40,746 nucleotides of DNA from a bacterium. GTDB taxonomy: Bacteria; UBP6; UBA1177. Made by a program: the position numbers and the translations under genes. Below the pieces are notes generated by a model, which ran no database searches, was not told the origin of the DNA, and was given only the letters and a program-made list of their open reading frames with translations. Below are positions 7,149 through 40,250 of this stretch, piece after piece. Each line of letters opens with the position of its first letter. Positions within the stretch are counted from its first letter, which is position 1. The DNA lies in NCBI GenBank assembly GCA_017961325.1, contig JAGCXM010000004.1, positions 1 through 40,746 of the forward strand, in the 5' to 3' direction.

Positions 7149-7151
7149 ATC

Positions 7152-7212
7152 TATCGGCAAGATTTTTAGCAAAAAAGCTTGAAAAAGGCAACTTTTTTGC
7201 CGATACCGGCAA
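7152..7212 (+). terminator. Nested, mutually exclusive hairpins after the amidohydrolase
   Basis: Three perfect stems compete. TATCGGCAA (7152-7160) pairs with TTGCCGATA (7197-7205). GCAAAAAAG (7169-7177) pairs with CTTTTTTGC (7192-7200). TTGCCG (7197-7202) pairs with CGGCAA (7207-7212). They begin 3 bp after the stop codon. The T-run lies inside the stem rather than after it, so this is not a textbook terminator, though end-of-operon processing is the simplest role. Confidence 0.5.
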
Positions 7213-7515
7213 GAAAATGGGGTTCTATCGTGAAATCAAATTGATTTATTCTTCACAAATTCCGCAGAATTTCAGTAATCCACGATTAATACATGATTTC
7301 AAAGCTGAGATTTCAGTTTTAGAACGGGCATAAATCATTATGAAAACGCAAATAATATTTAAAGAATATCCCCAAAATAAAGCATTTTTTATTTAAGTCC
7401 GCATAAAATGTCAGAGCTCAAACAGAGGATATTGTCGAAAAATTACCTAAAATTGAGTTTTAAATATAAAAATGGACGACATCTTGCGTTTGCGCTTATT
7501 TTTCTGTACAACATC

Positions 7516-7543
7516 TTGATTTTTTCTTTTTATTATGTAAACT
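7516..7543 (+). promoter_or_regulatory. Predicted promoter of the accessory three-gene cassette
   Basis: TTGATT (7516-7521), a 16-bp spacer, TAAACT (7538-7543), then AACC and GCAATTTAA. It lies 73 bp before the first ATG of the cassette. Its geometry matches the host-type promoters in the window. Confidence 0.45.
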
Positions 7544-7616
7544 AACCGCAATTTAATCCACGTTGGAGGGAGAATGTTGGAATTGAAGATCGGTAGAGTG
7601 TTAGAAGGAGGGAAAA

Positions 7617-8264
7617 ATGAGAGAGTGGTTAAGTAAACATAAAAACGAAATAATAACCGGAATAATAACCGGAATTATCGGTACTATTATTGGCACACTT
7701 ATATCATCTGTGTGGCATTACTTTATTGCATTTGTGCCAAGAGCGAGTAATTTTTTACTTAGAAGTTTAATTGATGGAATCTATTATGTTGCTTCAGATC
7801 TAACACATAGTTCTATTCTTACAACTTTACTATTCATATTAATGTTGCCAACAATGTTGTTGCCAATAGTGCTTGTAATTATATTAACTATTGAAAAAAA
7901 GGAAAAATTAAAAGAGGTAAAATTAGAAAATGATATAGAGGATGATGCTACAGGAGGCACACACTCTATTGAAACAAAGAACTATAAAGAAAAAGGGAAT
8001 AAAAATATTACAAAAAAATTAAAAATTATTGGTCTATTGGTGAGCTCTACTTTTACCTTCTTTTTGCTCTTTACTTATGTGCTGATTCCGATGGTGATTT
8101 GGGATAAATTTGAGCGAGATATTACTATAATCGCTCCGTATATGGAGGAAAAAGAGATTCTTACTTTACGTTCAGACTGGGCTCGTATGACAACGCGTGA
8201 TGATTATTCAAAAATATACACATTGATAACAACGAAAAAAACAGAGAATAATATTTTGCCGTAA
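7617..8264 (+). CDS. Unrecognised three-helix membrane protein, first gene of accessory cassette
   Basis: 215 residues, no named family recognised. Three hydrophobic segments are visible at about 12-36, 66-91 and 136-161. The first is a glycine-zipper type helix (ITGIITGIIGTIIGTLI) with Gly every 3-4 residues, which favours helix packing or oligomerisation. A charged loop (92-134) separates helices two and three. The C-terminal part (164-203) is a compact helical segment with FERDITIIAPY, LRSDWARM and DDYSKIYTLI; similar tails are familiar in small uncharacterised membrane proteins of accessory regions, though this is from memory. A strong GAAGGAGGG ribosome site precedes the ATG. The gene is much more AT-rich than the thi genes around it, suggesting transfer. 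Effector or sensor function is not established. Confidence 0.7.
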   Translation: MREWLSKHKNEIITGIITGIIGTIIGTLISSVWHYFIAFVPRASNFLLRSLIDGIYYVASDLTHSSILTTLLFILMLPTMLLPIVLVIILTIEKKEKLKEVKLENDIEDDATGGTHSIETKNYKEKGNKNITKKLKIIGLLVSSTFTFFLLFTYVLIPMVIWDKFERDITIIAPYMEEKEILTLRSDWARMTTRDDYSKIYTLITTKKTENNILP

Positions 8265-8325
8265 AGCCAAAAGATAAATAATGAGTTGCTATTATTTGAA
8301 AACTCTTGAAGTGGAGGTGTAAAAC

Positions 8326-8586
8326 ATGGAATGGTATGAGTGGCTTTTTGATGGTATAGGAACAGCTTTAATTAGTGCAATATTTAGCCTTATTGCATAT
8401 AACGCCGCAATCAAAAACATAGGGAAACAATCACAGACTGCCGGAGATGGTTCCAATCAAAAGCAAGAAATGGTTATAGAAGATTCTGGGGAACACGAAA
8501 ATGTACAAAGCACTATTAAGCAAACTCAAAAGTCTGGTAAAAATTCAAAACAAATGCAAGTAGGGAAAATAAATGACAGAAAATAA
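8326..8586 (+). CDS. Small single-TM protein with two QxQxAGDxSxQ motifs in its tail
   Basis: 86 residues. After MEWYEWLFDG comes one membrane helix (about 9-29, IGTALISAIFSLIAY). The polar tail holds two copies of a Gln/Gly/Asn-rich motif: KQSQTAGDGSNQKQ at 34-47 and KQTQKSGKNSKQMQVGKIN at 65-83. The second ends in MQVGKIN, which resembles the tetrad core of RHIM-like amyloid signalling motifs ([IV]Q[VI]G). The next gene begins with the same motif and overlaps this one by 14 bp. A good GGAGGTG ribosome site precedes the ATG at 8326. Small proteins with a similar WxxDGIGT helix and KQxQxAGD tail recur in accessory DNA, from memory. Function unknown; a membrane anchor or recruiter for the following protein is the working inference. 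Confidence 0.72.
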   Translation: MEWYEWLFDGIGTALISAIFSLIAYNAAIKNIGKQSQTAGDGSNQKQEMVIEDSGEHENVQSTIKQTQKSGKNSKQMQVGKINDRK

Positions 8587-8646
8587 TAAACAGGTTCAAA
8601 AAGCTGGAGATAATTCGCAGCAAATACAAGCTGGAACAATCAATAT
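8428..8646 (+). repeat. Three diverged copies of a QxQxAGDxSxQxQ-coding repeat spanning a gene junction
   Basis: Related DNA units lie at about 8428-8466, 8521-8576 and 8591-8646. The second and third align along about 56 bases with roughly 70 percent identity by eye and are offset by 70 bp, which is not a multiple of three. They are therefore read in two different frames by two overlapping genes. The resulting peptides are KQSQTAGDGSNQKQ, KQTQKSGKNSKQMQVGKIN and KQVQKAGDNSQQIQAGTIN. Confidence 0.75.
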
Positions 8647-9679
8647 TTATCAAGGAATTACAGAGCAGAGAGCACGTGAAATATGTTTTGAAATGGCCAA
8701 AAAAGCACTTGAAGAATGTGCAACAGAAGCTGATGAAACAGCCAATCGACGGATAAATGAGTTCGCAGGGATTCTTGTTCCCCGCATACAAAAAATTGAG
8801 GCAGATTTCAACTCTTTTTCTGATCCGGCTTTTCAAATACTGCTGAAAAAAGCCCAATTAACAGCAGCATGTACTGAACGAAATGATGATTACAAAATTC
8901 TTTCAGAGTTGCTTGTACACAGAGTTAAGAATAAATCTAACATCAAGAAAAAAGCGAGCATCACAAGGGCAGTTGAAATACTTGATCAAATTGATGACGA
9001 TTCATTATTGGCCTTAACTGTTTTTTTGACAATGAGTACTTTTATTCCGATAAGTGGCACTATTTCAAAAGGATTAAAAGTTATATCTGATATATACGAA
9101 AATTTCGATTTAGATTTGTTGCCAAAAGATGATGCTTGGCTGGATAATTTGTCAATATTAGGTGCGTTAACTATTAATAACTTTGGAAAACTTCCAAAAT
9201 TTAAAGATTATCTTTCAAGTGTTTTACCTGGGTATGTGTGTGTAGGCATAAAAAAAGATAGTGATGATTACAAAAAAGCCATAGAAATACTCAAGGAAGC
9301 TAAAATCAACATCAAATTTTTAATTGACCATGAATTACTGGAAGGATATGTGCGGCTTCCTTTAGTTAATAAAGAAGCAATAAATGATTTATCTTACCCT
9401 GTTCCATGTGAATCTTTAGAAAAAACACTAAATATACCGTTGAATGACCAAAATAAGAAAGCTCTGGAACAAGTTTTTGATATGGGTTTAAAAAAATCTC
9501 AAGATGTGTCTTCGGTAAAGGCAAGATTTGTTGAGATGCTAAATTCATATCCTTCCATTAGAAAAGCAATGGAATGGTGGGATTCTATTGAAACAGCTAT
9601 TTTGCCTACTTCGGTTGGAATGGTAATTGGTCATACAAATGCTAAGAGTATAGATCCTTCATTGCCGGATTTAGATTAA
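8573..9679 (+). CDS. Protein with N-terminal AGDNSxQIQAG motif, LPO_1073/Vpar_1526-like
   Basis: 368 residues. Residues 5-25 carry KQVQKAGDNSQQIQAGTIN, the same motif as the tail of the upstream protein. A mostly helical region follows (residues about 30-130: ITEQRAREICFEMAKKALEE, then SFSDPAFQILLKKAQLTAA and ILSELLVHRV). A middle section has a hydrophobic helix (LLALTVFLTMSTFIPISG) and the rest is alpha/beta-like without catalytic motifs I recognise. The N-terminal layout resembles proteins named LPO_1073/Vpar_1526 family; I recall that from memory and cannot verify it. The start overlaps the previous gene by 14 bp with only a weak AGTAGGG site, so translation is probably coupled. AT-rich like its neighbours. 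No enzymatic role can be assigned. Confidence 0.7.
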   Translation: MTENNKQVQKAGDNSQQIQAGTINIYQGITEQRAREICFEMAKKALEECATEADETANRRINEFAGILVPRIQKIEADFNSFSDPAFQILLKKAQLTAACTERNDDYKILSELLVHRVKNKSNIKKKASITRAVEILDQIDDDSLLALTVFLTMSTFIPISGTISKGLKVISDIYENFDLDLLPKDDAWLDNLSILGALTINNFGKLPKFKDYLSSVLPGYVCVGIKKDSDDYKKAIEILKEAKINIKFLIDHELLEGYVRLPLVNKEAINDLSYPVPCESLEKTLNIPLNDQNKKALEQVFDMGLKKSQDVSSVKARFVEMLNSYPSIRKAMEWWDSIETAILPTSVGMVIGHTNAKSIDPSLPDLD

Positions 9680-9726
9680 ATGTATTTCTTCTGTAAGATG
9701 ATCTTTGCCGAATAATACCTAACTTG

Positions 9727-9745
9727 AAGTCGTAAATTGCGACTT
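9727..9745 (+). terminator. Probable terminator of the accessory cassette
   Basis: AAGTCG (9727-9732) and CGACTT (9740-9745) form a 6-bp stem around a 7-base loop, 47 bp after the stop codon, followed by a short T/A-rich tail. The stem is short and the T-run weak. Confidence 0.4.
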
Positions 9746-9805
9746 TAAAAATTAAGTAAAAACCGCCTGAATTTATTTGTGGAACTGCCGAATGCTGAGG
9801 GGTCT

Positions 9806-9828
9806 GAGACGCCATGATATGACGTCTC
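9806..9828. repeat. REP-like palindrome, copy 1 (GAGACG...CGTCTC)
   Basis: GAGACG (9806-9811) pairs with CGTCTC (9823-9828), with further CAT/ATG pairing inside. Read on the minus strand it begins GTAGAGACGT, the same as the element at 12501-12525. It sits in the spacer between accessory block 1 and thiG. Confidence 0.6.
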
Positions 9829-9891
9829 TACGGGATACGGGGTGTTATTTATATTTCTTTCAATTTTTCTTCCGGGTAATTTGCAGTTTTA

Positions 9892-10739: not shown

Positions 10740-10810
10740 GAAGTTTATCGGGTTATAATCCGATAAACTTGGCAAAAATCGGAAGTTTATCGGTATGTAA
10801 TCCGATAAAG
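10739..10810 (+). repeat. Tandem pair of palindromic hairpins directly after thiG
   Basis: Hairpin 1: AAGTTTATCGG (10741-10751) pairs perfectly with CCGATAAACTT (10760-10770). Hairpin 2 reuses AAGTTTATCGG (10783-10793), pairing over 8 bp with CCGATAAA (10802-10809). The two units are direct repeats with a 42-bp period, differing mainly in the loop (GTTATAAT versus TATGTAAT). They start 1-2 bases after the thiG stop. They may end or protect the thiG message; no T-run follows, so they look more like REP-type elements than simple terminators. Confidence 0.65.
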
Positions 10811-11214
10811 TCTTCAGCCGTTTTTCTATATAACACGCTTATAAAAGTTGCTTTGTTTTTAATATCGTCGTTATAATTTCTATTTTTGCAATAACAGGCT
10901 TCTCAATAGGCTTATCCGATACCTATGAAGGAGATAAAAAATCATCGAATTCGACGGTGGAGATATTTACGACGAAATCATCGCCAACAAGAATTCTACA
11001 AATCCAAGAATTTTCAAATTCAAAAATGAAGCTCTGATAGAAATAATATTTGGAACAAATACTAGCGAAGAGGATACAAAAATCATAAAAAAGTTATGTG
11101 AAAATCGGGTAAAACCCATGTTAAGTTTTCTAAAATGAAACTGAAAGAAGGGCCTCATTAGGGGTTGGAAAAAGCCCCATTATTTATCTAAAATACGTCA
11201 ATCAGCGCACGGTT
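10740..11214. other. 475-bp stretch after thiG: hairpins and a degraded ORF
   Basis: It holds the two tandem hairpins, an AT-rich section, a well-placed GAAGGAG site at 10928-10934 in front of an open frame lacking a start codon, and a GGGG/CCCC hairpin near 11161-11178. No intact gene is visible. Confidence 0.5.
10938..11138 (+). pseudogene. Start-less 66-codon ORF with a good ribosome site
   Basis: The frame runs from after TAA (10935-10937) to TGA (11136-11138). It encodes IEFDGGDIYDEIIANKN... ending in ENRVKPMLSFLK, a believable small acidic/helical protein. A strong AAGGAG site lies 7-10 bases before ATC-ATC, where a start codon would belong, but there is no ATG, GTG or TTG there. It may be a small gene that lost its start, or one using a rare AUC start. 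No family recognised. Confidence 0.3.
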
Positions 11215-12221
11215 TCACAAAACAACTTCTTGATTTTTCAGGAGATTTTCAATCAGCGGTTTGTAAATTTCATTATCCGCAGAAGTCGTAATTGAACAGA
11301 CCCTGCTTCCTGCGTCTTTTGAAGATGCTCCACAATGATAGATAATCTCGTTTTCCGTGCCGAAATCAATGATGATGTATCTGTCATGAAAAATGCCGTT
11401 TGTCCGCTTGAAAGAAATCGCAACATTCGGATATTCCTTGCAGAAATCATCAAATTCCTTTTGATGCAGACTCTTTTTCAAATTGTCGGTAAAAATCGTG
11501 ATTTTCACATTTGCAGGTACTGATTTAAGGAGGACAAGCGTTTTCAAACCGATGTAATTGTCAATCACGAAAATCGTTTTTTCGACTGTGAATAAATTTC
11601 CTGATACGCCAAGTCCGCTTCAACCGACCTGCCGTTGAGAAACAGGAAATCCTTTTTTATTTCAGTATTGCTGAAATCTTCAATGATTCTGACGACATCA
11701 TCCTTTGTCGGTACATTTGATAATTTTTGGTCTATTCTCGCAATATCTTTGGAGTGTTCTAAAATATTTTCAGTATTTTGAGCTGTTTGAACAGCAAGTT
11801 TTGCTACCTCGTCATATCCGACCAAATGTTCACGTTCAATGATAAAATCTTTCATTCCTTTGAAAAGCCGAATCAGTATTTTGCTCTGCCTGATTGCCAA
11901 ATCACCGCGGAGAACTGTCATCAACATATAAATTCCTTGTTCCGTAAAAGCGTAAGGTTTATATTTTATGTTACTTCCACACCCTGTGTTCAAGGTGAAA
12001 ATTTTGCACCTTGAAAAATATTTTACCTCTGTATCAGAAAGCTGGAACATGAAGTCGTTGTCAAATTTCTCAATATTATTCTTTACTTGTCTGTTGAAAT
12101 TCTTGGTTTCATATCCGTAAATTTCAGCCAGATCAAAGTCCATCATGACCTGCATTCCGCGAATCGTGTAGATTTTAGACCTCAAATCTGTTTCGCTGTG
12201 AATCACTATTTCATTTTCCAT
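11215..12221 (-). pseudogene. ORF6N-domain DNA-binding protein gene, frameshifted
   Basis: Two overlapping frames together make one normal ORF6N-family protein. The first (from ATG 12221 to stop 11565) has the KilA-N-related ORF6N domain: IRGMQVMMDFDLAEIYG, NFNRQVKNN, FMFQLSD and the YAFTEQGIYML signature. A linker follows with QTAQNTENILEHSKDIARIDQKL and FLNGRSVEADLAYQEIYSQSKK. The second frame (11568 to 11215) continues directly: IDNYIGLKTLVLLKS, TIFTDN, FHDRYIIIDFGTENEIIYHCGASSKDAG. The break is at an A6 run (minus strand, 11578-11583); one extra A restores SKKTIFVIDNYIGL. Such proteins are typical of phage and mobile DNA. The start ATG 12221 has GGGG upstream; an upstream TTG at 12233 is less likely. 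Sequencing error, real inactivation or slippage cannot be separated here. Confidence 0.8.
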
Positions 12222-12251
12222 TTCAAACCCCAAAAAAGTTTTACGGTATGT

Positions 12252-12279
12252 AAAATAGAAATTCTAATAATAAAGTCAA
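12252..12279 (-). promoter_or_regulatory. Predicted promoter of the ORF6N gene
   Basis: Minus strand: TTGACT (12279-12274), a 16-bp spacer, TATTTT (12257-12252), then ACAT. The ATG at 12221 follows 30 bp later. Confidence 0.45.
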
Positions 12280-12398
12280 TTTTTACAACATATATTTTGT
12301 GAATTTGTTAAAAAGTAAATAAAAAATTCGAAATAGACTTATGTGATTGTCGTAGAAGTTATAGAAAATCAGTGGGCATGATTTTTAGAGATTGACAT

Positions 12399-12415
12399 GC
12401 GGGCGGACCGCCCGC
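12399..12415. repeat. GC-rich perfect palindrome
   Basis: GCGGGCGG (12399-12406), A, CCGCCCGC (12408-12415): an 8-bp perfect inverted repeat with a one-base centre, standing out in AT-rich DNA and followed by GCTCCGGC. It looks like an intergenic repetitive palindrome rather than a terminator, as no T-run follows. Confidence 0.55.
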
Positions 12416-12480
12416 GCTCCGGCAAAAGAGAGATGAAACAAAAAGCAAATTTTCCCTCTCGCATTTTTTCAAAAGTTGAG

Positions 12481-12486
12481 TATAAT
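12481..12486 (+). promoter_or_regulatory. -10 box of the toxin-antitoxin operon
   Basis: A perfect TATAAT (12481-12486) is followed by ACAT and CGGTTTTTG. The 13 bases GTTGAGTATAATAC are shared with the ankyrin promoter on the other strand at 4.76 kb. The -35 region is poor (TCGCAT at 12459-12464). The palindrome at 12504-12525 would lie in the leader, where it could act as operator or RNA hairpin. Confidence 0.45.
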
Positions 12487-12503
12487 ACATCGGTTTTTGC
12501 GTA

Positions 12504-12525
12504 GAGACGTAACCTGATACGTCTC
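12504..12525. repeat. REP-like palindrome, copy 2 (GAGACGT...ACGTCTC)
   Basis: GAGACGT (12504-12510) pairs perfectly with ACGTCTC (12519-12525) around 8 bases. It shares GTAGAGACGT with the minus-strand reading of the element at 9806-9828. It ends 7 bp before the toxin ribosome site. Confidence 0.6.
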
Positions 12526-12542
12526 ATTTGGCGGAGATTGGT

Positions 12543-12854
12543 ATGGAAATCAATACGCTGAAAGAGTTGTGTTCAGCTTCTAAAATAAAGTGGACAAAGC
12601 ACGGATTGGAGCGGATGCAGGAACGGAACATTTCAACAGCGGATGTTAAAAACTGCATAATGAACGGTGAAATAATTGAGGAATATCCGAATGATTTCCC
12701 GATTCCGAGTGCGTTGGTATTCGGACACAATGTGGAAGACCGCGTTCTGCATACGGTTTGCGGAACCGACGGACAGTTTTTGTATGTTGTGACCGCATAT
12801 TTTCCAGATACGGATAAATTTGAAAGCGATTTAAAGACACGGAGGACAAAATAA
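12543..12854 (+). CDS. DUF4258-domain protein, probable toxin
   Basis: 103 residues from ATG 12543; a TTG 15 bases upstream is possible, but GGAG at 12533-12536 favours the ATG. The DUF4258 pattern is clear: KWTKHGLERMQERNIS near the start (conserved His and Arg), VKNCIMNGEIIEEYP, SALVFGH, and LHTVCGTDGQFLYVVTAYFPD at the end. DUF4258 proteins resemble the RelE/BrnT fold and commonly pair with small antitoxins, here the zinc-finger protein that follows at once. An mRNA-interferase activity is inferred from the fold, not shown. Confidence 0.8.
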   Translation: MEINTLKELCSASKIKWTKHGLERMQERNISTADVKNCIMNGEIIEEYPNDFPIPSALVFGHNVEDRVLHTVCGTDGQFLYVVTAYFPDTDKFESDLKTRRTK

Positions 12855-13082
12855 ATGTGCATGTATTGCAGAAATTCTGAATTAAAGGCTGCGACAACGA
12901 CGCATGTTGTCAATTATAACAATTGTGTGATCATCATCAAAAATGTTCCGTGCGAAGAGTGCACTCAATGCGGTGAAAAGTATTATTCCGAAGAGACTGC
13001 GGGACGTCTGGAACAGCTCGTGGATGCCGCAAAAAAGATAATGCAGGAAATTTCGGTAATCGACTATCTTAAAGTTGCGTAA
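12855..13082 (+). CDS. YgiT/MqsA-type zinc-finger protein, probable antitoxin
   Basis: 75 residues starting directly after the DUF4258 stop (TAAATG). Zinc ligands are C2-x2-C5 and C36-x2-C39 (CTQCGEKYY), the YgiT-type finger found at the N-terminus of MqsA. The helix-turn-helix half of MqsA is absent, so this short form probably binds toxin rather than DNA. The C-terminal helix (SEETAGRLEQLVDAAKKIM) is usual for these short antitoxins. It forms a two-gene module with the upstream gene and sits just before thiH. Confidence 0.82.
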   Translation: MCMYCRNSELKAATTTHVVNYNNCVIIIKNVPCEECTQCGEKYYSEETAGRLEQLVDAAKKIMQEISVIDYLKVA

Positions 13083-13117
13083 ATGTGCCTCAACATCCTG
13101 AATTTAAAGGAGAAATT

Positions 13118-36369: not shown

Positions 36370-36387
36370 GAAAGAGAGGTGAAACTA

Positions 36388-39300
36388 ATGAAAAAACTCC
36401 TTCTTCTACTTATTGCTCTGATGTTTTTAGCAGTTTCGTGCAGCAGCTCGAAAAAAACGGAAAACGATGCTGACACCGACATTCTGCCGGATGAAAATGC
36501 GGCGGATCTCGATGAAAACGAAGATGATAACGATGAAGAACTGAATAATACTGATGAAGATGAGAACGAGTATGTAAATCCGTGCGACAAGATCGACTGC
36601 GGCCAATTTGCCCATGCCTCCGGAACATGCGAACCTAAAGACAACTTGTCTTTTTCATGTGACTGCGACGAGGGATACTTCTGGGGTTATTTAGGTTGCA
36701 AAAAAATAACTTTTGCAAATATCTGTACCGGTCAGACTAAATGTTACAACAACAAAGAGGAAATATCTTGTCCTGACAAAAATGAGGATTTTTACGGTCA
36801 GGATGCGCAGTATGCAAAACTAGGATATTGTATTTCACAAAATTTCTCTACGGCTGACTCTGACAATCCTACTATACTGGACTACAACCTGAAAATAGAA
36901 TGGACGGATAAAAATTCAGATTCAGCTTATACTTGGGAAGAAGCGGTAAAATATTGTGAAGAGCTCGAATACGCAGGATACGATGACTGGCGCCTTCCGC
37001 TTCCCAAAGAACTGATGTCTTATCGTAATGTATTGAATTTTAAAGAAAAATCTGATTTCTGGTCTATGCAGGAATATACCGGGAATGATTCCTACGCATG
37101 GTATGTTGACAACAACTCCGGCGCAGTTTTACCTGAAGAAAAAACGCAAATGCATCATGCGCACTGTGTTCGTGGTGAACCTCTGGAAACAACATCGTCA
37201 TTCGGGACTATTACTATCGGGGAAGAATCTATTGACGTTGATTATGAAACCTCTCTTGCATGGCTAAGGACGCGCGGGTTCGTTGACGGCAGCTGGCAAG
37301 ACTCTCTCGCTTTCTGTGAAAATCTGACTTTCGCAGGATTTTCCGACTGGAGACTGCCTAATATCAACGAATTTTTCTCCATAGTTGATCATGCCATAAA
37401 AAGACCTGCCGCGCTGCCGCCAGGATTAAAAGAAATAATGCAGACCGTTATGTACGAATGGTGGAATTATTTTTACTTGTGCTCTTCCACCTCAAACAAC
37501 AGTGAAAACGCCCTTGGAATAGAACCAATGGACGGTAACGGCAAGCAGTTGAGAAAACCAAACCTGCTGTCGGCTTTTTGCGTCAGAAACGAGCCTTGTG
37601 CAAGAGATTACTTTTGGAACGGTAAAAAATGTGTTTCTCTATGCAACCCCAATCCATGTGAAAACGATAAACATTCCGATGGAATCTGTTCCATAGACAA
37701 CCTTGAAAACTATTCCTGCGGATGCGTTGAAGGCTATTTCTGGAATGGCAAGGAATGTGTTTCTCCATGTGATCCGAATATGTGCAGCGAAGACAAAAAC
37801 TCAACCGGTGAATGTATTGTCTCAAATATTGACTCCTACGAGTGTGTCTGCCGTAACGGATGGTTCTGGAACGGCAAGAAATGCGTTTCTCCGTGCAATC
37901 CGAATACATGCGGTGAAGACAAAAATTCGACAGGAGAATGTATGGCTCTGAATATCGATTCATACCAGTGCATCTGTCTTGACAACTGGGTATGGGACAA
38001 TGAAAAGTGCGTCGATCCATGCGCCGGTGTTTCATGCGCAGAATTCGAACATGCTTCCGGAAACTGTAAATCTTTAAGTGCTTTTTTCTATTCGTGCAGT
38101 TGCGATGAAGGCTACTTCTGGTGGGGCAAAGAAACTGGCTGCACTACAAAAAAACCTACTTCTGCAAATGTCTGCACAGGGCAGAACAGGTGTTACGACA
38201 ACGAGAAAGAGATCCCCTGTCCTGCAGAAAATGAGGATTTTTTCGGTCAGGATGCGCACTATGCAAGGCTTGGATACTGTATTCCGCAGAATTTTTCGAT
38301 TGATAATTCCGTCGAAAACGAGCCTGTCGTAGTTGACAACAATACCGGAAATATATGGCAGAGAAATATCCCCCCGCTTGAAACTCTTTATAGTAAAGAT
38401 GTCAGCAAATACTGCGAAGATCTCAATTACGGCGGTTATGACGACTGGACACTGCCGAGCGTAGAAGATTTTATGACTATTGCCGATTACGGCAGATACA
38501 ATCCGGCCATCAAAACCGAATATTTTCCCGACTATAAAAATTTCTGGACCTCTTCCGGCAGTTCAAGCGGTTCTGGAGGAGGTATTGACAATCACGGTTA
38601 TTATTCGGTCTACGGCTATACTGCAATATTTGATTTCACGGAACCTTCCACATCTTACGTACAGACATATTATTACGACAATTACAGCATGATTTCCGAA
38701 ACGAACTATGCTTACTCGTTCAACATCCGCTGTCTACGCAGAAACAGTCTCACAATTCCTCCGCGCCATTTCACTTCAAAAACTTTCGGCAGCAGCGTGA
38801 TGTGGAACAACTACAACGATCTTATCTTTGCGGAAAAAACGGGAAAGGAACTTTCGTGGTCTGAAGCTATGAAATACTGCTCGGAACTTGATTATGCCGG
38901 GATATCAGACTGGAGACTGCCGAATGTGAAAGAGCTCTTTTTCAATTCAAAGCGCGGTTTCCACTCATCGACAACAGCACCGTATGATTTCAATTACGAC
39001 TATTCATCAAAAGAGGAAGGCTACGTAGTCTACCAGCATTCGAAAGAAAGTCAGCTGACGGATACTTTCTGCGTAGCGAATGACCCGTGTGAAAGCGGAC
39101 TCTTCTGGAATGGAGAAAAATGTGCGAAAAACCCATGTTCGAAAGATCCGTGCAAATCTGACAACCATTCCGACAGAATATGCATAGTTTTGGACGAAGA
39201 AAACTATTCATGCAACTGCAACAAAAACTACAAGTGGAGTCCTGAAAAACGGCAATGCGTCCGCACCTGTCAGGATAATCCCTGCAGTACCTACTCCAAT

Positions 39301-39693
39301 TCCGACAAACAGTGCTATGACGACGATGTCGAAGGATTCTACTGCGGTTGCATTGAGCCTTATTTCTGGAATGCGAACAGCCGCAAATGCACTCAGAATT
39401 GTGACCACAACCCGTGTCTGAATGAAGCGAACAGCACTCATGAATGTTTTCCTGATGAAAAGAACGGATATACCTGCGGTTGCAATGACGGATATGTCTG
39501 GCTGAGACTTGACGGCTGCGTAACAGACTTCTGTAAATTGGATTCCTGCAAAAACATCTCCAATTCCAGCGGAGAATGCAGAATAGTAGAAGAATTCGGC
39601 TATTTATGCGAATGTCTTAACGGAACTTTGTGGAATCCGATAGAAAAGAATTGCGGAGAATATGGATTGAGTTTCGACTGGGGGACAGAATAA
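36388..39693 (+). CDS. Giant EGF-like/Lcl multidomain lipoprotein with internal duplication
   Basis: 1101 residues from ATG 36388. Signal peptide with lipobox LAVS-C18, then an acidic spacer (residues 22-62). Domains in order: EGF-like module (66-104), a VCTGQ-type segment (110-150), two Lcl repeats (DDWRLP 199-204, SDWRLP 319-324), three to four EGF-like modules with the WNGKxCVSPCxPNxC pattern (404-545), another EGF (545-585), a second VCTGQ segment (594-632), two more Lcl repeats (DDWTLP 685-690, and SDWRLPNVKELF), and four to five EGF-like modules to the end. Residues 66-150 and 545-632 are clearly homologous, so the gene arose by an internal duplication of about 1.44 kb. Probably a surface adhesin or binding protein; the ligand is unknown. 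A following lipoprotein gene overlaps by one base. Confidence 0.85.
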   Translation: MKKLLLLLIALMFLAVSCSSSKKTENDADTDILPDENAADLDENEDDNDEELNNTDEDENEYVNPCDKIDCGQFAHASGTCEPKDNLSFSCDCDEGYFWGYLGCKKITFANICTGQTKCYNNKEEISCPDKNEDFYGQDAQYAKLGYCISQNFSTADSDNPTILDYNLKIEWTDKNSDSAYTWEEAVKYCEELEYAGYDDWRLPLPKELMSYRNVLNFKEKSDFWSMQEYTGNDSYAWYVDNNSGAVLPEEKTQMHHAHCVRGEPLETTSSFGTITIGEESIDVDYETSLAWLRTRGFVDGSWQDSLAFCENLTFAGFSDWRLPNINEFFSIVDHAIKRPAALPPGLKEIMQTVMYEWWNYFYLCSSTSNNSENALGIEPMDGNGKQLRKPNLLSAFCVRNEPCARDYFWNGKKCVSLCNPNPCENDKHSDGICSIDNLENYSCGCVEGYFWNGKECVSPCDPNMCSEDKNSTGECIVSNIDSYECVCRNGWFWNGKKCVSPCNPNTCGEDKNSTGECMALNIDSYQCICLDNWVWDNEKCVDPCAGVSCAEFEHASGNCKSLSAFFYSCSCDEGYFWWGKETGCTTKKPTSANVCTGQNRCYDNEKEIPCPAENEDFFGQDAHYARLGYCIPQNFSIDNSVENEPVVVDNNTGNIWQRNIPPLETLYSKDVSKYCEDLNYGGYDDWTLPSVEDFMTIADYGRYNPAIKTEYFPDYKNFWTSSGSSSGSGGGIDNHGYYSVYGYTAIFDFTEPSTSYVQTYYYDNYSMISETNYAYSFNIRCLRRNSLTIPPRHFTSKTFGSSVMWNNYNDLIFAEKTGKELSWSEAMKYCSELDYAGISDWRLPNVKELFFNSKRGFHSSTTAPYDFNYDYSSKEEGYVVYQHSKESQLTDTFCVANDPCESGLFWNGEKCAKNPCSKDPCKSDNHSDRICIVLDEENYSCNCNKNYKWSPEKRQCVRTCQDNPCSTYSNSDKQCYDDDVEGFYCGCIEPYFWNANSRKCTQNCDHNPCLNEANSTHECFPDEKNGYTCGCNDGYVWLRLDGCVTDFCKLDSCKNISNSSGECRIVEEFGYLCECLNGTLWNPIEKNCGEYGLSFDWGTE

Positions 39694-40250
39694 TGAAAAA
39701 ACTCATCATTTTCCTGATTTTATTAGCATTTTTAGCAGTTTCGTGCAGCGGGTCGAAAAAAGCGGAAAACGATGCTGACGTTCTGCCGGATGAGGATGAA
39801 GCAACAACTGACGAGGATGATGATTCGGATGATGAAGTAAATGTCGATGAAGATAAAACCTATTATGAAGAGCCGGACAAAGATGCAGATTACGATGAAG
39901 ACAATCCATGCGTTCCCAATCCTTGTGAGAATATGGACTATTCAACAGGAAAGTGCAATTTGTCTTACAACTGGTTGTACGGGTATGAATATAAATGCGA
40001 ATGTGTTGAAAATGCAGTATGGCACGGCATAAACAACTACTGCTACGACCCGTGCAACCCGAATCCTTGTGAAAACATAGCGCATTCAAACGGCGAATGT
40101 ACAGCGCGAGAATCTCTTATAGGAGACGATGCTTACTGCGGCTGCATTGACGGATATTACTGGGATGACGACCGCTACAAATGCACTTCGTCGTCCGAGG
40201 AAAAAGAAGAATGCGCTGACTTTCAGAATCCCGATTCCGACGAAATTTAA
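39693..40250 (+). CDS. Short EGF-like lipoprotein, possibly 3'-truncated
   Basis: 185 residues from ATG 39693 (TAATG overlap with the upstream stop). Signal peptide with lipobox LAVS-C18, followed by SGSKKAENDADVLPDED, nearly the same as the upstream protein, then an acidic spacer and two EGF-like modules (NPCVPNPCENMDYSTGKC..., PCNPNPCENIAHSNGEC...). It lacks the Lcl domains of its relatives and ends shortly after the second module with ECADFQNPDSDEI. Its stop is one base from the end of a convergent DUF4143 ATPase gene, so truncation by insertion is likely but not proven. Confidence 0.8.
   Translation: MKKLIIFLILLAFLAVSCSGSKKAENDADVLPDEDEATTDEDDDSDDEVNVDEDKTYYEEPDKDADYDEDNPCVPNPCENMDYSTGKCNLSYNWLYGYEYKCECVENAVWHGINNYCYDPCNPNPCENIAHSNGECTARESLIGDDAYCGCIDGYYWDDDRYKCTSSSEEKEECADFQNPDSDEI

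Follow-up and report, generated by a model that had tools for sequence, protein, structure and literature searches.

Two overlapping genes in the window (the whole stretch of 40,746 nucleotides that was analysed), genes 2 and 3, encode a small membrane-helix protein and a larger soluble protein that carry the same peptide motif. This motif of ~20 residues, rich in Gln, Asn, Gly and Ser, is located in the C-terminal part of the gene 2 protein and at the N-terminus of the gene 3 protein, which was clearly a member of the LPO_1073/Vpar_1526 family (NF045477). We consider it an even chance that the two genes form a mobile two-component module, likely anti-phage, with the motif as a homotypic link, likeliest of cross-beta structure, between an LPO_1073 regulator and a membrane effector or anchor. 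The features of the locus are listed in Table 1.

Table 1. Positions and properties of the features of the gene 2-gene 3 locus in the window
Feature	Position	Strand	Description	Basis
Insert	7149..9887	+	2.7 kb between amidohydrolase gene and thiG	
Gene 1	7617..8264	+	215-aa membrane protein; passenger in the insert carrying genes 2 and 3	
Gene 2	8326..8586	+	86 aa; single membrane helix near the N-terminus (residues 6-24) and a polar tail that holds both gene 2 motif copies; candidate membrane effector	ORF, hydropathy
Gene 2 membrane helix	8341..8397	+	overlaps W-x-W-x-F-D-G-I-G signature at helix start	hydropathy peak 1.73, residues 6-24; alignment
Motif copy 1, gene 2	8425..8484	+	QSQTAGDGSNQKQEMVIED (GKQSQTAGDGSNQKQEMVIED region)	motif profile E 4.9e-6 in window genome
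Motif copy 2, gene 2	8518..8577	+	KQTQKSGKNSKQMQVGKIND	motif profile E 3.2e-6
Overlap of genes 2 and 3	8573..8586	+	exactly 14 bp	
Gene 3	8573..9679	+	368 aa; LPO_1073/Vpar_1526 family; proposed sensor/regulator	NF045477 match
Motif copy, gene 3	8588..8647	+	KQVQKAGDNSQQIQAGTINI, residues 6-25	motif profile E 1.6e-7

The initial annotation of this region had described two 56-base units, about 70 percent identical and 70 bp apart, which are read in different frames as the end of gene 2 and the start of gene 3. The similarity between the units (8521-8576 and 8591-8646) was confirmed at a lower figure, with matches at 37 of 56 bases (66%), and the spacing of 70 bp (70 mod 3 = 1) does place them in different frames; the reported 14-bp overlap of the two genes was exact. 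No other ungapped pair of 56-mers less than 200 bp apart in the region scored higher than this offset-70 pair, whose score was reached by only 1 of 500 dinucleotide shuffles. Translation of the units in their own frames produced QTQKSGKNSKQMQVGKIND and QVQKAGDNSQQIQAGTINI, so that the same peptide ends gene 2 and starts gene 3 as had been claimed; 11 of 19 residues were identical, and 6 of these 11 were encoded by different codons. The weaker motif copy located further upstream within gene 2 was missing from the initial annotation. An AGGGA sequence at 8562-8566, inside motif copy 2 of gene 2, is a likely ribosome-binding site for gene 3.

Comparison of the window copies of gene 2 and gene 3 detected synonymous differences at 9 of ~11 sites (pS 0.81) and nonsynonymous differences at 11 of ~46 sites (pN 0.24), a significant excess of the former (Fisher p = 6e-4). 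The motif copies of the UBA1177 locus differed in the same direction, with more synonymous than nonsynonymous change (p = 0.006), as did those of the L006 locus at a level that was not significant (p = 0.17). Between the window and UBA1177, dN and dS were 0.09 and 0.48 for the whole of gene 2 and 0.13 and 0.40 for the body of gene 3; the motif stretches alone were too short and too little diverged in this comparison to be informative. The saturation of synonymous sites indicated that the DNA similarity is a residue of constraint on the peptide rather than a mark left by recent duplication. This result upheld the suggestion of selection for a peptide motif rather than mere DNA similarity; evolution of the copies without constraint was looked for and not found. 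The accompanying proposal of a local out-of-frame tandem duplication was not sustained. A recent duplication of this type, or a functionless chance similarity, would account for two DNA copies with 66% identity at a distance of 70 bp, and was refuted by the comparative data, namely, the saturated synonymous sites, the presence of the same pair in distant phyla and the cognate matching described below; virtually no weight is left to it. Furthermore, the pair occurs in distantly related bacteria, where the motif is preceded by unrelated membrane parts, which indicated an old similarity that has been maintained.

The distribution of the motif was examined in LPO_1073 loci that were collected by searching with gene 3 or its family, irrespective of gene 2. 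An N-terminal motif with a consensus of ~QxQKAGDNSxQIQxGxIN was detected in eight loci: the window, UBA1177, G018, a human-gut scaffold filed as phage (L006), a locus from another phylum (G314), a P2-like phage-plasmid of Escherichia coli, a Pantoea plasmid and G980. In 8/8 of these loci a motif copy was encoded immediately upstream, in a reading frame of its own. Locus G980 was considered as an exception having a motif without a partner and was rejected as such, since a whole-genome motif search detected a decayed partner directly upstream, a start-less remnant (PHTIIKPCVPLQQHQKSGNNSINYQANGDINIGSTKHD) within a 38-codon open frame that encodes no membrane part. Restriction of the motif to one of the two genes, which the initial annotation had named as evidence against its own proposal, was not found, and both copies were present in the motif-bearing related loci. 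The spacing of the two genes ranged from overlaps of 1 to ~26 bp to a 9-bp gap. As the spacing varies among loci, it is not the overlap that has been conserved, and both overlap and frame shift are incidental. The window genome was placed in the candidate phylum UBP6 on the basis of its close relative UBA1177. Genes 2 and 3 occurred together in 3 of 28 UBP6 genomes and were both absent from the other 25, with no further matches to the motif profile in these 28 genomes. The E. coli pair was present in 6 of 5,426 genomes. Scans of viral contigs detected only near-identical E. coli copies, and neither the window protein nor the Pantoea protein, the alignment or the membrane signature had any match there; searches of plasmids and phages contributed few loci, which were useful.

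The tail of each gene 2 protein aligned with the N-terminus of its own gene 3 protein better than did shuffled tails (p = 0.0005 to 0.0025), and the score of the G980 tail against its own gene 3 was reached by none of 2,000 shuffles. When partners were exchanged among seven loci (UBA1177 was excluded because of its closeness to the window), the actual pairing had the top total score of 5,040 permutations, a signal to which close pairs (window and L006) add less specificity and which partly reflects the common ancestry of both genes. An example of this matching is the Pantoea pair, which has GISGGKNSTN in one partner and GISSGDNSNT in the other where other loci have QKAGDNSxQ. Judged from these sequence patterns, the motif very probably has an interaction role, with physical binding between the two proteins as the expected form. 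A conserved peptide in two proteins would also be produced by a common ligand, for which the motifs could be parallel handles that bind a third partner without touching each other. A common cellular ligand does not predict matching within loci or loss of the motif in fusion proteins (see below), and we regard this explanation as highly improbable.

Profile searches matched gene 2 to no Pfam or NCBIfam family, and a weak match was obtained with the PADLOC candidate PDC-M43A (E 1.2e-4); the gene was kept in three UBP6 genomes. The full-length gene 2 proteins from seven loci were 64 to 93 aa in length and had one or two membrane helices by hydropathy, with the motif as the C-terminal part. At least three unrelated types of membrane part preceded the common motif: a WYxWxFDGIG type was common to the window, UBA1177, G018 and L006, G314 had a single helix of another kind, and the E. 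coli and Pantoea proteins each had two helices. Two motif copies were present in several of these proteins. Gene 1, for which no Pfam or NCBIfam family was matched, was considered as a third component and rejected; it did not accompany the pair in UBA1177, G018, E. coli or Pantoea and lies outside the conserved core. A Sel1-repeat protein elsewhere in the window genome (G000:C44:4924-5073, L020) starts with EWFFSGIG and a gene-2-like membrane helix, followed by an Asn-rich linker.

Gene 3 matched NF045477 over residues 28-360 with an E value of 5e-31 and 108.3 bits against a curated cut-off of 45, and the NF045477 domain began immediately after the motif. No Pfam domain was detected in this protein, and searches of Pfam and NCBIfam detected no recognised sensor, NTPase (NB-ARC/NACHT) or anticodon nuclease/ABC-type domain. 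An AlphaFold model built from three sequences had a pLDDT of 33 and was discarded. A PDB sequence search with gene 3 produced nothing usable, and one PDB match at E 0.012 among the gene 3 and motif sequence searches was judged to be due to chance. NF045477 stands for no more than a domain with a name. In the library searched, from which most subscription papers were absent, the motif, partner gene and module were nowhere described, including in the one paper found to name the family.

LPO_1073 proteins without the motif had no motif-bearing neighbour beside them. In three genomes of one Negativicutes-like genus (L053-L055, with L053 read in part), an N-terminal membrane helix, a long linker and a C-terminal LPO_1073 domain were joined in one polypeptide of ~670 to 730 residues which lacked the motif. 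The fusion gene adjoined galU in the two loci read and resembles a resident, immobile form of the family. A helix was also joined to LPO_1073 in G1071, through a short Asn-rich linker and again without the motif, and the LPO_1073 protein of G581 had its own hydrophobic N-terminus and no visible partner, in a locus whose upstream region was partly masked. The proteins of G878 and G998 were divergent, with that of G998 ending at a contig edge. Thus, the single-gene fusions that the initial annotation had recommended looking for do exist, with the helix joined directly to LPO_1073 and the motif absent. The simplest reading of these arrangements is that LPO_1073 would work with a membrane helix to which it is either fused or motif-linked. 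The G878 locus (L062 5280-6775) contained an LPO_1073 gene, itself a weak match to the PADLOC candidate PDC-S47, and after it a gene for a CAP12/Pycsar-type TIR protein that ends at a contig edge; the tail of this TIR protein had an N-rich stretch with no match to the motif, and the protein is possibly another type of effector.

The helix fusions fit a permanent tether as well as they fit inducible templating. With a tether, the motif would be a folded, non-amyloid docking strand that always holds LPO_1073 at the membrane, and activity would reside in the LPO_1073 domain. Fusion appears to replace the motif, which is missing from the helix-fused proteins of the Negativicutes-like genomes and G1071, and a Veillonella proteome study (PMC5491611) listed Vpar_1526 among its subcellular fractionation results as of unclear localisation, both of which are consistent with a tether. 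However, a signalling protein would be served by helix fusion as well, and the Q/N/G/S-rich near-repeats, doubled in several gene 2 proteins, would be odd for a docking strand and resemble amyloid signalling motifs. On this evidence a permanent tether is a rather unlikely explanation.

The pair is found at genomic sites that harbour defence and mobile genes. In three relatives (L024, L029 and L030) the flanking amidohydrolase gene and thiG were 8 to 22 bp apart, compared to the 2.7-kb insert of the window, and in other relatives the same site was occupied by a gene of the PIN or DUF1016 type, or by an HsdS fragment together with a PIN gene. This site (window 7149-9887; L022, L025, L026 and L028) is a variable hotspot in the genus, being either empty or filled with PIN, DUF1016/YhcG or HsdS-type genes. 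A second apparent cargo block was observed in the window between thiG and the next thiamine gene (10740-13084), in which, with names assigned by reading alone, an ORF6N-like gene (11565-12233) and a DUF4258-like and YgiT-type zinc-finger pair resembling a toxin-antitoxin system (12528-13082) were present. The UBA1177 pair was located between hsdS and hsdR; the window pair was outside any restriction locus. In the Bacillota-like G581 (L064 1-6737), an LPO_1073 gene followed hsdM, hsdS and an hsdR-like gene, a second association of LPO_1073 with type I restriction in a distant phylum. The E. coli pair occupied the P2 region between the replication and portal genes (gpA-gpQ), a described defence hotspot (PMC9122126), beside a gene matching PADLOC Hp2. 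Phage integrase genes adjoined LPO_1073 in L006, G980 and G998, and an integrase-like fragment lay near that of G1071. The L006 scaffold, with an integrase gene and a truncated LPO_1073 gene, resembles a piece of an integrated island and not a phage. A family of large lipoproteins, which have N-termini rich in Asp/Glu and repeats of an EGF-like CxxNPC unit, was also encoded in the window (36379-40250) and in L041, with several copies in the window genome and G018. The placement of the pair suggested that the module probably serves defence, with activity against phages as the expected role.

The sites shared with PIN toxin genes would also suit a toxin-antitoxin system in which gene 2 is a small membrane toxin that gene 3 silences by binding its tail through the motif. 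The gene order, in which a short membrane-protein gene precedes that of a larger partner, with the two overlapping and probably co-translated, conforms to such a system, and the G980 LPO_1073 gene beside a gene 2 remnant is explicable as a leftover antitoxin. Against this, G581 retains LPO_1073 with no visible partner, which an antitoxin need not do, and in the two loci read the helix-LPO_1073 fusions adjoin galU like ordinary resident genes. We therefore regard a toxin-antitoxin system as unlikely.

In the preferred reading, that of an inducible homotypic module, the soluble LPO_1073 protein would be the sensor or regulator and the small gene 2 protein a membrane-acting effector or anchor, with the motif as the interaction segment that joins them. 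Signalling would run from gene 3 to gene 2: a triggered LPO_1073 protein would cluster its motif, the clustered motif would act as a template for the motif-bearing tails of the gene 2 protein, and the helices of this protein, once clustered, may damage or depolarise the membrane. By analogy with known signalling motifs, an amyloid-type assembly of the motif is only a little short of an even prospect.

Three groups of known systems were compared with the pair. The RHIM motifs of RIPK1/RIPK3 and the fungal PP motifs similarly have a short V/I-Q-V/I/A-G-like core common to a regulator and a death effector, whereas the residues around the core differ; a search of the PDB with the motif profile matched no chain at E <= 10 and so no RHIM structure. 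PrrC and similar toxins located in type I restriction loci (PMC2610378) provide a parallel for the UBA1177 pair between hsdS and hsdR and for the G581 LPO_1073 gene after an hsdR-like gene. In contrast to PrrC, gene 3 has no anticodon nuclease domain (Pfam), and the window copy lies outside a restriction locus.

The third group comprised the NLR-associated amyloid signalosomes of bacteria known as BASS/Bell (PMC7889193, a review; PMC8086366; PMC12261475). In BASS signalosomes, adjacent or overlapping genes encode a receptor with the motif at its N-terminus and a small membrane-helix effector with the motif at its C-terminus (PMC7889193). In the eight loci described here the genes are likewise adjacent or overlapping, and the Q/N/G-rich motif in the N-terminal part of the larger protein recurs in the C-terminal part of its neighbour, which, apart from the G980 remnant, is a small membrane-helix protein; in both, the effector-side motif is repeated in some cases and varied effector parts precede a related motif. 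The full-length gene 2 proteins, all with one or two membrane helices, may be Bell-like effectors. Comparison of the motif with two published BASS3-type peptides detected a weak similarity (p = 0.009 and p = 0.57). Unlike these signalosomes, the larger protein is LPO_1073, in which no NB-ARC or NACHT domain was found, the hosts extend to ordinary unicellular bacteria, E. coli among them, and the amyloid character of the pair is putative. As the pair has the anatomy of BASS with LPO_1073 replacing the NLR, we infer a homotypic, probably cross-beta, assembly. The review asks whether bacteria have signalling amyloids in NLR-independent pathways (PMC7889193), and the module is a concrete candidate for one that consists of two small genes. 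Its occurrence in E. coli (NZ_CP148400; WP_000687980.1 with WP_000490525.1) makes this candidate quickly testable, and the association of a gene 3 motif with a motif in the neighbouring gene supplies a simple comparative marker. The module also provides a first functional frame for the uncharacterised LPO_1073/Vpar_1526 family. Tentatively, amyloid-type signalling modules of this kind, independent of NLRs, may be widespread in ordinary unicellular bacteria and prophages, with LPO_1073 sensors that either activate small membrane effectors or are permanently joined to a membrane helix, and with some modules guarding type I restriction systems.
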